Assembly: GCA_013816805.1 (NCBI GenBank)
Contig: JACDDS010000003.1
Span: 136,582-200,581, forward strand
DNA from: Chitinophagales bacterium
GTDB taxonomy: Bacteria; Bacteroidota; Bacteroidia; Chitinophagales; UBA10324
Direction of reading: 5' to 3'
DNA: 64,000 nucleotides
The notes below the pieces were generated by a model. The model searched no databases. It had not been told where the DNA came from and saw only the letters and a list, made by a program, of their open reading frames with translations. A program made the translations under genes and the position numbers. Numbering within the stretch: position 1 is the first letter of the stretch; every line of letters starts with the position of its first letter. Of the stretch, positions 2,376 to 47,262 are shown piece after piece.

Positions 2376-3167
2376 ATGAAGTCATTATTTATAATTGGTT
2401 TATTTTTCCTGCCGCTTTATCTTTTTGCCCAAACAGAACTGGAATCAGGGGGAATTTATGACACTGTGAAGGTTATTGATCCGCTTCATTCTAATTCCAT
2501 GCAACTTAGTATTTATGGTCATTACACAAGAGATCTCAGGCGTATAGGCAATATTGTAAATGGGAAAAGGGAAGGCTCCTGGCGTACTTATTATCAAAAT
2601 GGATTGCTTAGCAGCCTTCAGCAATTTCATGAAGATATATTAAACGGGGTGTTTTTAATTTTTGAGCCGGGTGCACAGCTGGCCCGCGAAGATTTCTATG
2701 AAAATGGAATACTTGAAGGGATCAGCCATGCATTTCATGGCGGGGTTATGACTTCCATTGAACCATACAAAAACGGACAACTCAATGGGTGGCGAAAAAT
2801 ATTCGTTAATGGAATCATTTCAGAAGAAGGAAATTGGAAAATGGGCATACGGGATAGTATAAGCAGATGGTACTCTGTAATCGGGAAAGTTTCTATAGAG
2901 TATTACTATACAAATGGAACATTAAATGGAAGCTCAATATCCTATTATGAAAATGGCCAGGTAAAATCATCAGGTAACTTTTTAAACAGTTATCAAAATG
3001 GTTATTGGAAAGAATTTTATGCTTCAGGAAAATTAAGTGAAGAGGGAGATTATAGTTCCGGAAAAAAGAATGGCACCTGGAGTTTTTTTAGTGAAGAGGG
3101 AATTTTGCAAAAAACAGAACAATATAGAAACGGAGATGTAGTTAAGAAAACCCGGGTAAAAAAATAA
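2376..3167 (+). CDS. Exported YwqK/MORN-repeat protein
   Basis: 263 residues with a Sec signal peptide (KSLFIIGLFFLPLYLFAQ, cleavage likely after FAQ). About eight YwqK/MORN-variant repeats follow, each around 23-24 residues with a G-x-W-x-x-Y-x-x-N-G core. There is no lipobox, so the product is periplasmic or outer-membrane associated. The next gene (3196) encodes a close paralogue with the same signal peptide ending and repeat order, only 28 bp downstream, so the two are probably a tandem duplication in one transcript. A TAATTTCG sequence at 2363-2370 is a weak match to the Bacteroidota -7 box. Function unknown. Confidence 0.82.
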   Translation: MKSLFIIGLFFLPLYLFAQTELESGGIYDTVKVIDPLHSNSMQLSIYGHYTRDLRRIGNIVNGKREGSWRTYYQNGLLSSLQQFHEDILNGVFLIFEPGAQLAREDFYENGILEGISHAFHGGVMTSIEPYKNGQLNGWRKIFVNGIISEEGNWKMGIRDSISRWYSVIGKVSIEYYYTNGTLNGSSISYYENGQVKSSGNFLNSYQNGYWKEFYASGKLSEEGDYSSGKKNGTWSFFSEEGILQKTEQYRNGDVVKKTRVKK

Positions 3168-3195
3168 TCTTGAGTGCATAAATCGATAATACTCT

Positions 3196-3981
3196 ATGAA
3201 ACAATTCTTTGTTCTTATTATTTTTTGCTTTCCGCTTTATCTGCTTGCTCAAAACAATGAGGAAACTGGTTATTCAGATACCATTCGTGTTCATGATCCG
3301 GAACATTATAATATAGAACACTTAAAAATATATAGTGTAACAGGAAAGATTGCACGCTCAGGAGATTTGCTTAATGGAAAAAAAGAAGGGATTTGGCGGG
3401 AATACTATGAAAACGGCTTTTTGAGCAGAGTGCTGCTATACCATGAGGATGTTTTAAACGGTATTACTCTCATGTTTCAAACAAGCGGAATGCTAATGCG
3501 CGAAGCAGATTTCAGCAGGGGCAAGCTGAATGGAATTTTACATGAATACACTGATAACTATTTGTCTTTAGAGGAGAATTACATAAATGGAGTTTTAAAC
3601 GGGTGGAGAAGAGTTTATAAAAACAGCGTTATTGCAGAAGAGGGTGGATGGAAAATGGGAAAACGGGACAGCATTAACAGATGGTACTATGAAGATGGAA
3701 AGGAATCTGTTGAATATAATTATACGAACGGGATGATAGAAGGGGCATCAAAATCTTTTTTTGAAAGCGGGCAATTGAAAGCGGAAGGTACTTTCAGGAA
3801 TAATTATGAAGAAGGGTTGTGGAAAGAATATTTAGAATCCGGAAAGGAAAATTCGGAAGGCCTTTATAAGGCAGGAAAAAAAAATGGCAAATGGAAAATT
3901 TTTAATGAAGACGGAAGACTTCAGAAAATGATTGAATATCTCGATGGAAAAGTTGTTAAGGAGACTGCAGTAAAGAAATAA
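3196..3981 (+). CDS. Exported YwqK/MORN-repeat protein, paralogue of the preceding gene
   Basis: 261 residues with a signal peptide (KQFFVLIIFCFPLYLLAQ). Repeat-by-repeat it resembles the 2376 protein: shared DTI/DTV..DPEH segment after the signal, shared GWR-x-x-x-x-N and WKMGxRDSI blocks, and a shared xxKKNGxWxxFxEDG terminal repeat. The pair therefore arose by duplication. It has the same type of repeats as the lipoprotein at 794. No catalytic motif is visible. Location is probably periplasmic or outer-membrane facing, and function is unknown. Confidence 0.82.
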   Translation: MKQFFVLIIFCFPLYLLAQNNEETGYSDTIRVHDPEHYNIEHLKIYSVTGKIARSGDLLNGKKEGIWREYYENGFLSRVLLYHEDVLNGITLMFQTSGMLMREADFSRGKLNGILHEYTDNYLSLEENYINGVLNGWRRVYKNSVIAEEGGWKMGKRDSINRWYYEDGKESVEYNYTNGMIEGASKSFFESGQLKAEGTFRNNYEEGLWKEYLESGKENSEGLYKAGKKNGKWKIFNEDGRLQKMIEYLDGKVVKETAVKK

Positions 3982-43368: not shown

Positions 43369-43446
43369 GTCTAATCCTGGACATTCATAATAGTTATTGT
43401 AAAACTAAGTTTGAGATTCCCGCTTTCGCGGAAACCCTACGAGCCT

Positions 43447-43519
43447 GTCATTCCCAACTTGATTGGGCATCTCCTAATAGCCATTTAAGTTTGGGATTCC
43501 CGCTTTCGCGGGAATGACG
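43447..43519. repeat. Short composite unit B-spacer-A (73 bp)
   Basis: Type B palindrome (43447-43473), spacer with CTAATAGCCATTTAAG, then type A palindrome (43493-43519) ending ATGACG. Outer ends are GTCAT / ATGAC inverted repeats. It closely resembles the unit at 44071-44144. Confidence 0.82.
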
Positions 43520-43674
43520 TTTAAATGGTCATCATCATACTTATCTTGATTGGGCATCTCCCGCTTTTCTGGCTCACCAACTCGCCGTCATGCCCAACTT
43601 GATTGGGCATCTCCAAGGTAATGAGGTGTAAAGGGAACTATCGTCATGCTCAACCTGATTGGAGCATCTCATTT

Positions 43675-43965
43675 TTATAAGTTTTCAAATAAATCTTTCC
43701 ATACAGGGTTCATTTTTGAAATTAATTCATCTTTCCATGCTCTGTTCCATTTCTTTAATTGTTTTTCTCTTGCAATTGCATCTTCTATTCTTCCATAAGT
43801 TTCATAATAAACCAACTTACTGCAATTATATTTAGCCGTAAAAGAATTAGGATACGCTTTATTTTTATGTTCGAGCATTCTTTTAAATAAATCAGAGGTT
43901 ACACCTATATACAGAACGCTTCCATGTTTATTTGCCGTCATATAAACTGTGCCGCCGTATTGCAT
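43675..43965 (-). CDS. GIY-YIG nuclease domain protein embedded in the repeat array
   Basis: 96 residues from ATG at 43965-43963 (MQYGGTVYMTANKHG). This single GIY-YIG domain looks complete: the VYM / LYIGVTSDLFKR core with catalytic Arg, HKNKAYPNSFTAKYN, LVYYETYGRIEDAIAREKQL with the metal-binding Glu, and the terminal MNPVWKDLFENL. A longer frame to 44109 runs through repeats (PIKLGMT, RESGN) and is not protein-like. This family of small nucleases is common in Bacteria, but its function is mostly unknown. The gene ends 4 bp from a type B palindrome (43642-43670) and begins 12 bp from a type A palindrome (43978-44004), so it takes the place of the 20-bp spacer of the short units. That points to a role in repeat mobility, which is inference. 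Confidence 0.85.
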   Translation of the reverse strand: MQYGGTVYMTANKHGSVLYIGVTSDLFKRMLEHKNKAYPNSFTAKYNCSKLVYYETYGRIEDAIAREKQLKKWNRAWKDELISKMNPVWKDLFENL

Positions 43966-44070
43966 AGTATAAATTATGAGATTCCCGCTTTCGCGGGAAT
44001 GACGTGTAAAAGGAATTATTGTCATGCCCAACTTGATTGGACCTGCGCTTTCTCGGACACCCCACGCACC

Positions 44071-44144
44071 CGTCATGCCCAACTTGATTGGGCATCTCAT
44101 AATAACCATTTACATTTGGGATTCCCGCTTTCGCGGGAATGACG
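44071..44144. repeat. Short composite unit B-spacer-A (74 bp), second copy
   Basis: Type B (44071-44098), spacer with ATAATAACCATTTACA, type A (44118-44144). It differs from the 43447 unit at only a few positions. The outer ends are CGTCAT and ATGACG. Confidence 0.82.
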
Positions 44145-44294
44145 GGTAAAGGGAATTATCGTCATACCAAACTTGATTGGCCTTCCGCTTTCTCAAATAC
44201 CGACCTGCCATCATGCCCAACTTGATTGCGCATCTCTGCCTTCGCTGAACACTACGAAAACATGCCCGTCATGACCAACTTGATTGGGCATCTC

Positions 44295-45185
44295 CTAATA
44301 GTCATTTGCAATGGCCGCTTTAATCTTTTCATAAAGTGCCCTGCTCACTTCTGTAAGTGGCAACCGAACGGTCTCTTCGCAAAGGCCCAGTATATTCAAG
44401 GCTGCTTTCACCCCGGGCGGACTGCCTTCCTCAAAAAATAATTCCATAAAAGGAAACAGTTTATAGTGCAGCTTTTGTGCAGGTCTAAAATTTCCGTCCA
44501 GCGCTTCTGATACCATAGCAGAAAAATCTTTGGGAAATGCCTGCGCCACCACGGAGATCACGCCATCCATGCCGAAGCTGATGCCCGGCAAGGTGATGAG
44601 ATCGTCGCCTGAGATCACGGAAAAATCTTTCGGCTTATTTTTTATGATCTGCATCATCTGCGCCAGGTTACCGGATGCTTCTTTGATTCCGATAATTTTT
44701 TGGCTAGCCGCAGCAAGCCGCAGCGTAGTTTCAGCGGTGATGTTTGAGGCCGTCCTGCCGGGCACATTATAAAGGATGATGGGCAACGGTGAGCGCGCTG
44801 CAAGCTGCATGTAGTGCCGGTAAATACCTTCCTGTGATGGCTTGTTGTAATAGGGGCTTACAGAAAGGATGGCATCAAACAGCGATGCATCAATACTTTC
44901 AATCTGAGCTGATATCTCCCCGGTATTATTTCCGCCTATTCCTGCAACAAGAGGAACACGCTTTTTCACAATTGAAGCAGTAAAATTCCATACTTCTATT
45001 TTTTCTGCTGCGGAAAGGGTAGCAGACTCGCCCGTAGTACCCAGCGAGACAAAATAGTTGATGCCATTTTCAATGTTGAAATCCAGCAATTTTTCCAATG
45101 CCACGTGATCGACAGAAAGATCTTTTTTAAACGGTGTGATGAGCGCAACGCCGGTGCCGCGAAATTTTGAGTGATCCATAGCCAA
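44295..45185 (-). CDS. dapA: 4-hydroxy-tetrahydrodipicolinate synthase
   Basis: 296 residues. A TIM-barrel N-acetylneuraminate lyase superfamily member with LGTTGESATLS (pyruvate-binding Thr pair), catalytic Tyr in IILYNVPGRTASN and Schiff-base Lys in IIGIKEASGN. It condenses pyruvate with aspartate semialdehyde in lysine/DAP synthesis. The stop codon TAG (44297-44295) touches the end of the last type B palindrome of the array, and the last codons (AATGACTAT) resemble the array spacer. The C-terminus may therefore have been set by a repeat insertion. The start could be 45185 or 45179. Confidence 0.94.
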   Translation of the reverse strand: MAMDHSKFRGTGVALITPFKKDLSVDHVALEKLLDFNIENGINYFVSLGTTGESATLSAAEKIEVWNFTASIVKKRVPLVAGIGGNNTGEISAQIESIDASLFDAILSVSPYYNKPSQEGIYRHYMQLAARSPLPIILYNVPGRTASNITAETTLRLAAASQKIIGIKEASGNLAQMMQIIKNKPKDFSVISGDDLITLPGISFGMDGVISVVAQAFPKDFSAMVSEALDGNFRPAQKLHYKLFPFMELFFEEGSPPGVKAALNILGLCEETVRLPLTEVSRALYEKIKAAIANDY

Positions 45186-46805: not shown

Positions 46806-47262
46806 GTGAAAAACTTATCAAAATCAATAAAAGATGCTTTGATAAACCAAAGACATTATAATTTCAGTTTTGATAGAAGTAGTCTCCATTCGAAATATGA
46901 TTATGTACGAGTGAAGGATATTGCGGAAGCGCAAACAGGATTTCCATTTTCAAAAACCTATTTTACTGATGACAATTCGGATAATGCCATGCCTTTGATA
47001 AGAATAAGGGATTTAAAAAATAACGTAACAAACTTTTTATACAGGACCATATGATGAAAAGTTTGTTGTAAATAATGGAGACTATTTAATAAGCATTGAT
47101 GGTGAGTTTAATATTTTAATTGGCACAGTGGTAAGGCATTATGTGCTTATAAACATAAATAATATAGGAGGTTATAAGACAGGACACGCAGGTACTGCAA
47201 GTTTTGATGAACCTTTGAAAAAGGGTGAGGTCCTGAAAATTGTTGCCCCGTTTTTTGCGTGA
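46806..47262 (+). pseudogene. Fragment of a type I restriction specificity subunit (HsdS)
   Basis: A GTG-started frame of 82 codons encodes the beginning of a target-recognition domain (YDYVRVKDIAEAQTGFPFSK, then PLIRIRDLKNNVTNFLY) and stops at 47054. The continuation is found in another frame (TGPYDEKFVVNNGDYLISID), and a further shift gives NWHSGKALCAYKHK. Both are typical of HsdS. The protein is therefore frameshifted at least twice and lacks the second recognition domain. No hsdR or hsdM is nearby. It is a dead remnant and marks the left edge of a disturbed region. Confidence 0.75.

Follow-up and report, generated by a model that had tools for sequence, protein, structure and literature searches.

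Why does a nuclease gene fill the spacer of a palindromic repeat unit, and do the gene and its palindromes belong together? These questions are raised by a locus in the window, i.e. the whole stretch of 64,000 nucleotides from a Chitinophagales bacterium that was analyzed here. The original prediction had interpreted this locus as a full-length mobile element accompanied by its non-autonomous derivatives. To judge from sequence comparisons with homologue loci, the gene and its two outward-facing palindromes very probably constitute one mobile or losable unit, the nuclease of which recognizes its own palindromes. Below, we describe the locus, its counterparts in other genomes and the sites at which the unit is present or absent, and weigh the alternatives against this reading.

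A nuclease gene between two palindromes

A gene for a GIY-YIG nuclease of 96 amino acids plus stop (43675-43965, minus strand), identified by its open reading frame, Pfam match, residues and AlphaFold model, takes up the spacer between a B and an A palindrome. The interval of 307 bp between the B palindrome (CGTCATGCTCAACCTGATTGGAGCATCTC, 43642-43670) and the A palindrome (GAGATTCCCGCTTTCGCGGGAATGACG, 43978-44004) is occupied by this reading frame, with 4 bp between the end of the stop codon and B and 12 bp between the MQYGG start and A, exactly to the base as had been predicted. Both palindromes face outward, with CGTCAT/ATGACG ends. In the orientation of the gene, A is the 5' terminal REP of the unit (minus strand, CGTC tag, stem ATTCCCGC, 4-nt loop GAAA). 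B is the 3' terminal REP (plus strand, CGTC tag), with a consensus stem of ATGCCCAA and a 5-nt loop of the TCAAG type; in this copy the stem is imperfect and the loop is about 5 nt long. The two ends of the unit have the tag and the fold in common, but their stems are different. A longer open reading frame of 144 amino acids was rejected as a real gene, because its N-terminal 48 residues come from reading through the palindromes (e.g. RHSRESGNL).

Besides the gene unit, the array contains two B-spacer-A units, six B copies that stand alone and a remnant of A. The two short units, each consisting of B, a spacer of about 20 bp and A, lie where they had been claimed to lie: the first (43447-43519) is a head-to-head REP dimer with outward tags, and the second (44071-44144) adopts a branched hairpin fold with its tags paired. 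The 108 bp containing each short unit are 87% identical between the two. Folding of these units as single-stranded DNA gave z values of -4.3 and -5.4, with the outer CGTCA/TGACG ends pairing together. The A remnant (approximately 43416-43435, minus strand) has two mismatches and has lost its tag. The lone B copies, all on the plus strand, comprise an intact one (43587-43614), degenerate ones at 43535-43561 and 44161-44188, one with a degenerate 3' half (44021-44048), one with an ATCAT tag (44211-44237) and the final copy of the array, which abuts dapA (44268-44295). The tag is on the plus strand in all complete B copies and on the minus strand in all A copies.

When all 3.57 Mb of the assembly were searched, allowing up to 3 mismatches, we found five matches to B, all of them in the array, and five matches to A, namely four in the array and one, with 3 mismatches, elsewhere. 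Because the matches are confined in this way and the reversed control patterns of A and B gave 0 matches in the same search, the palindrome array is not a product of chance. The original prediction is borne out in part. Its unit of gene and palindromes held up, whereas the short units are at most putative mobile miniatures: in this genome they never occur outside the array, and local duplication or deletion explains them equally well.

All units stand in one array and in one orientation, between a convergent lolA-like gene and dapA, and longer blocks of the array are duplicated too. Such a layout might have arisen by accident if terminator palindromes between the convergent genes had expanded by slippage and a nuclease gene had landed inside. 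This scenario accounts for the size of the array but not for the association of the gene with the palindromes, and dozens of loci scattered over the phylogeny show the same arrangement with matched ends. We therefore give an accident of this kind almost no credence. A comparable local event is seen in Sinorhizobium meliloti Ak57 (L119, about 1250-1500), where the gene end and the 3' REP are repeated just upstream of an intact gene, a local duplication in tandem that resembles the window array. Elsewhere in the window, an open reading frame of 82 amino acids (46806-47054, plus strand; translation by eye) resembles the start of HsdS, a type I restriction specificity subunit, and is apparently truncated.

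The 96-residue protein matches the Pfam GIY-YIG family (E = 3e-15), and no NCBIfam model scored above its cut-off. Its conserved catalytic-type residues are Y8, Y19, G21, R29, H33 and E67. Alignment of 45 homologues showed no variation at Y8, Y19, G21, H33 and E67 or in the stretch R66-R75, and this invariance of GIY-YIG residues speaks for an active nuclease. The nearest solved folds to the AlphaFold model (pLDDT 95) are UPF0213 and the GIY-YIG domains of UvrC/Slx1, all of them weak matches; the UPF0213 structure 1zg2 is nearest both by profile (E = 3.5e-5) and by structure. A scan of species genomes yielded 538 relatives, the best 80 of which belong to Bacteroidota, Proteobacteria, Patescibacteria, Ignavibacteria, Zixibacteria, Nitrospirae, Chloroflexi and other groups. 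A phage origin was rejected, as a search of a phage collection gave no match. Membership of a known defence system was likewise rejected, as PADLOC gave no match for the window protein and weak ones for a few homologues. On the Planktothrix agardhii plasmid p1 (L120, 1486-1770), a homologue flanked by repeats of the GTCATTCTGAG type has an MmeI-type restriction enzyme on one side and the DISARM helicase gene drmA on the other.

One homologue is found in Neisseria gonorrhoeae (50% identity, tblastn E = 1e-20), where CGTC-1/dRS3-like palindromes lie on both sides of the gene within 250 bp. This protein is probably Ssn, which is reported to be a site-specific single-stranded GIY-YIG nuclease of Neisseria that acts on repeats (said to come from the Veyrier laboratory, in Nature Communications in 2025). 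It reportedly modulates transformation by acting on dispersed repeat sites.

Palindromes and protein across homologue loci

When the flanks of homologue loci were read by eye, the order GTCAT-hairpin, gene, hairpin-ATGAC appeared in many of them. Among 132 homologue loci, which are biased toward close relatives of the query and mutually related, so that the counts are non-independent (p-values overstate certainty; effect sizes are unaffected), 98 had an outward GTCAT upstream and 89 had one downstream; 72 had it on both sides. The background was 15.9% of windows per side, and control words gave about 15%. The roughly 45% of loci without the tag on at least one side reflect partly decay and partly a detector limited to GTCAT. 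A de novo hairpin detector (80 loci, ≤150 bp) located tag-out hairpins on the upstream side of 41 loci and on the downstream side of 37, compared with 13 and 13 for tag-in hairpins; the background density was 0.26 per kb in the rest of the loci and 0.05 per kb after shuffling of the sequence. Tails of the form CCA were present in many of the loci.

The two flanks also match each other. Comparison of the upstream flank with the reverse-complemented downstream flank exceeded the 99% shuffle level for 70% of loci when both flanks were taken from the same locus and for 17% when the loci were mismatched. Moreover, the 5' and 3' stem words were equal in 42 of 73 loci (permutation mean 14.8, maximum 24). 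None of the window genome's five further GIY-YIG hits, two of them UvrC-like, had an outward tag pair. UvrC and the other GIY-YIG hits of the same genome were used as controls because another small GIY-YIG family gave 9 hits, which is too few. A gene bounded by matched terminal inverted repeats is thus found at the level of the family, and its members are mostly flanked by palindromes rather than bare, in line with the original prediction.

We then compared palindrome type with protein, using as stem word the four bases after the tag. Among cross-phylum locus pairs, which may be inflated by MAG binning errors although several loci come from isolates, the stem word was common to 0-4% of pairs at <50% protein identity, to 43% at 55-60%, to 65% at 60-65% and to 79% at ≥65%. 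The same trend was observed for pairs within phyla. The window nuclease, for example, goes with stems of the ATTCCC/ATGCCC type, and a Pedobacter nuclease with the ATTTCGAG type. By these comparisons the palindrome type tracks the protein and not the host, a pattern that may reflect linked inheritance rather than recognition. It is also seen within single genomes. Specifically, a genome of the window's order (G036) encodes three related paralogues with GTCATTGCGA-type ends and a distant fourth with GTCATCCCGAG-type ends, each of them bounded by its own long inverted repeat, and in three of four further multi-copy genomes identical tag words stand on both sides of at least one paralogue. In a search of 150 Flavobacterium-group genomes for the CGTC-1 palindrome, 6 were positive, 4 of them among the 7 carriers of a close homologue (Fisher p = 2.5e-5, which overstates certainty because the loci are related). 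Within this set of genomes, the palindrome is therefore not abundant where the gene is lacking, as had been expected of a genuine link.

The tracking also bears on the possibility that a RAYT-type (Y1/HUH) transposase encoded elsewhere mobilizes the palindromes, with the GIY-YIG gene as a passenger between REPs. Y1_Tnp-related sequences do occur in 14 of the 17 genomes checked, including weak ones in the window genome. However, no Y1_Tnp match lies near the array, the REP-rich genomes G085 (62 copies) and G100 (25 copies) are devoid of Y1_Tnp matches, and it is the GIY-YIG protein that the palindrome type tracks. Moreover, a survey of CGTC REPs states that these repeats are without a dedicated transposase and that no RAYT flanked by them was found (Di Nocera, De Gregorio, Rocco, 2013; PMC3733652). 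We consider mobilization by a RAYT highly improbable, and continue with the reading that gene and palindromes form one unit.

Occupied and empty sites

If the unit is mobile or losable, close relatives should differ in carrying it. Empty sites in close relatives, which the original prediction had suggested looking for, do exist, but at other loci: in relatives of the window genome the lolA-dapA neighbourhood is not kept and synteny is lost, and a site on a Rhizobium plasmid offered no readable empty counterpart. In Azospirillum lipoferum 4B, the gene lies between sufB and sufC with a REP dimer on each side (L186, AZO_p3, 1870-2430). In A. ramasamyi, A. oryzae and A. sp. B510, sufB and sufC are found without the insert, and in further Azospirillum records both flanks align with the insert not spanned. 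Since A. lipoferum is alone among the listed Azospirillum records in carrying the insert, an insertion is the best reading of its case.

On Sphingobium plasmids, seven records have the unit between fnrL and the gene of a response regulator, and at least four relatives lack it. A palindrome tagged on both sides is retained at two of the empty sites (CCGTCACCCCGGGTCAAGCCCGGGGTGACGG in TomTYG64), a scar in which the 5' REP's outer arm is fused to the 3' REP. The TomTYG64 scar, with its GTC...GAC double tag, is located at about 930-960 of locus L194, corresponding to plasmid positions 94032-94058. Across seven Sphingobium plasmids, double-tagged palindromes were rare, being present at 2 of 29 sites, one of which is exactly the fnrL site. 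In the plasmid collection at large, the records NZ_CP119142.1, CP090106.1 and NZ_AP026896.1 are of chromosome size (2.2-4.9 Mb) and probably mislabelled. In Flavobacterium, five close species carry the unit between a DUF4286-like gene and ksgA, three lack it without a trace, and one empty site has a double-tagged degenerate palindrome upstream of ksgA (L156, G200). These scars show that the unit leaves as a whole but not what removes it, because ordinary slippage between the palindromes yields identical scars. Among 19 copies in four genomes, no near-identical paralogues were found that could be fresh insertions, the best being about 81% identical. Likewise, no fresh transposition in the form of identical copies or a clean target duplication was seen; the insertion boundaries are too blurred for a duplication to be read.

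The empty sites also speak to homing, in which the nuclease, in the manner of free-standing GIY-YIG homing endonucleases, would cut gene-less REP dimers and double-strand-break repair would copy the gene in, making the B-spacer-A units targets and not derivatives. Homing would fit the position of the window gene exactly in a dimer spacer with the empty dimer form beside it, the A. lipoferum gene between REP dimers, and the match of one homologue to a homing-endonuclease profile. Yet two intact empty dimers adjoining the window gene remain unfilled, divergent paralogues have different ends, and the Azospirillum empty sites and some of those in Flavobacterium contain no dimer at all. Homing is in our view an improbable explanation, although less so than a RAYT mobilizer.

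A further alternative is that the nuclease serves the host. In such an Ssn-type system, it would cut single-stranded copies of the repeat and thereby tune natural transformation or recombination, and the unit would be neither selfish nor self-moving. The gonococcal homologue among dRS3-like repeats points in this direction, as do the reported nature of Ssn, a site-specific nuclease of single-stranded DNA whose repeat sites are said to affect transformation, and the dispersal of the repeats in some homologue genomes, with up to 111 copies. The patchy presence at orthologous sites and the sufB-sufC insertion, however, have the look of selfish turnover. Single genomes can encode several divergent paralogues, each with ends of its own, and decayed gene copies with in-frame stops (L063, Vibrio breoganii chromosome 2, 3001-3267; L208, G171:C38) are as expected under selfish turnover. 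In addition, the window genome and F. paronense have hardly any repeats outside the array of the gene. We regard a host-serving system as unlikely, though the strongest of the rival accounts, and think just as little of the related idea that the flanking palindromes are regulatory or recognition sites of such a nuclease.

A proposed element and its known relatives

To explain the recurrent arrangement, its matched ends, the cross-phylum tracking and the presence or absence of the unit with scars, we propose a 'REP-GIY-YIG' element. This element would consist of a 5'-(C)GTCAT-stem-loop, a GIY-YIG nuclease of 90-110 amino acids and a stem-loop-ATGAC(G)-3', its palindromes being CGTC-type REP hairpins. 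The nuclease would most likely recognize and cut its own palindromes when these are single-stranded and folded, which may happen on the lagging-strand template, during repair or in incoming DNA. After the cut, host repair or recombination would copy, insert or remove the unit. The B-spacer-A dimers may be gene-less by-products, multiplied only locally around the gene in this genome. We infer recognition and cutting from the protein family, the tracking of palindrome type and the reported precedent in Neisseria. The cut would in turn drive gain and loss, so that the nuclease itself would power movement, and could provide the route of entry into a new site. GIY-YIG enzymes act on DNA by hydrolysis, and no strand-joining activity is known for them; true transposition would therefore need help from the host. 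Taken as a whole, including the cutting of its own palindromes and a turnover completed by the host, we consider this explanation reasonably probable.

A broader claim is that CGTC REPs form the termini of mobile units powered by a GIY-YIG nuclease, with the B-spacer-A units as miniature derivatives. We put this forward more tentatively, as a possibility that falls somewhat short of probable. If true, it would amount to an analogue of the RAYT-REP system that needs no transposase: a hydrolytic nuclease would cleave the hairpins at its own ends, leaving the joining to host repair. The recurrence of the arrangement across many bacterial phyla makes the GIY-YIG enzyme a candidate for the partner that these repeats, a large class, are said to lack. 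The 2013 survey that defined CGTC REPs, which are widespread in bacteria, left open what moves them (PMC3733652), and a nuclease gene bounded by CGTC palindromes, together with the tracking and the empty sites, now makes this question testable. Such a system would unite dRS3, RPE and the Bacteroidota repeats of the GTCATTGCGA and GTCATTTCGA types, which have so far been described separately. It would also supply many natural enzyme-target pairs, i.e. nucleases of 90-110 amino acids with predictable recognition hairpins.

According to the same survey, the super-family of CGTC-tagged REPs includes Neisseria dRS3 and Rickettsia RPE and is reported in five phyla, among them Bacteroidetes and Proteobacteria. 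Its members are defined by an unpaired CGTC/TGTC tag at one end, a stem of 8-9 bp that starts from AT and a loop of 4-5 nt; their tail is mostly CCA, which is typical but not universal, and they form head-to-head dimers (PMC3733652). The window palindromes match this description in their tag, as A and B carry (C/T)GTC, and in the stem starting with AT, the loop size and the head-to-head dimers. Their tail, however, is CTC(A) rather than the typical CCA, and instead of a high dispersed copy number they are few and local, around the GIY-YIG gene. The survey text examined makes no mention of a GIY-YIG gene (PMC3733652).

The protein itself has its nearest solved fold in UPF0213 (1zg2, 1ywl), yet identity to these proteins is low (about 25%). 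Free-standing homing endonucleases of the I-TevI type are alike in their catalytic fold and in having a gene inside what may be its own target, but the unit described here has terminal inverted palindromes and the structural match is weak (rank 33). In the literature searched, we found no paper that pairs GIY-YIG with REP sequences, nor any account of gene and REPs as a bounded, losable, cross-phylum unit. What is known, separately, are CGTC REPs and, reportedly, a GIY-YIG nuclease that targets REPs. A GIY-YIG partner for such repeats may accordingly not be wholly new, given the reported Neisseria nuclease. Like the window protein, Ssn is a GIY-YIG protein of about 90-100 amino acids, and the window protein shows both homology to the Ssn family, through the Neisseria homologue that is probably Ssn, and its conserved GIY-YIG catalytic residues. 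Ssn is reportedly a modulator of transformation at dispersed repeats; the empty sites, the scars, the link to CGTC REPs and the cross-phylum tracking are added here. Finally, the unit resembles RAYT/REPtron/REPIN systems in that the gene for a DNA-cutting enzyme is flanked by REP hairpins, which also exist as gene-less dimers, but differs from them in its enzyme and its tag: an HUH/Y1 fold and GTAG there, GIY-YIG and CGTC here.
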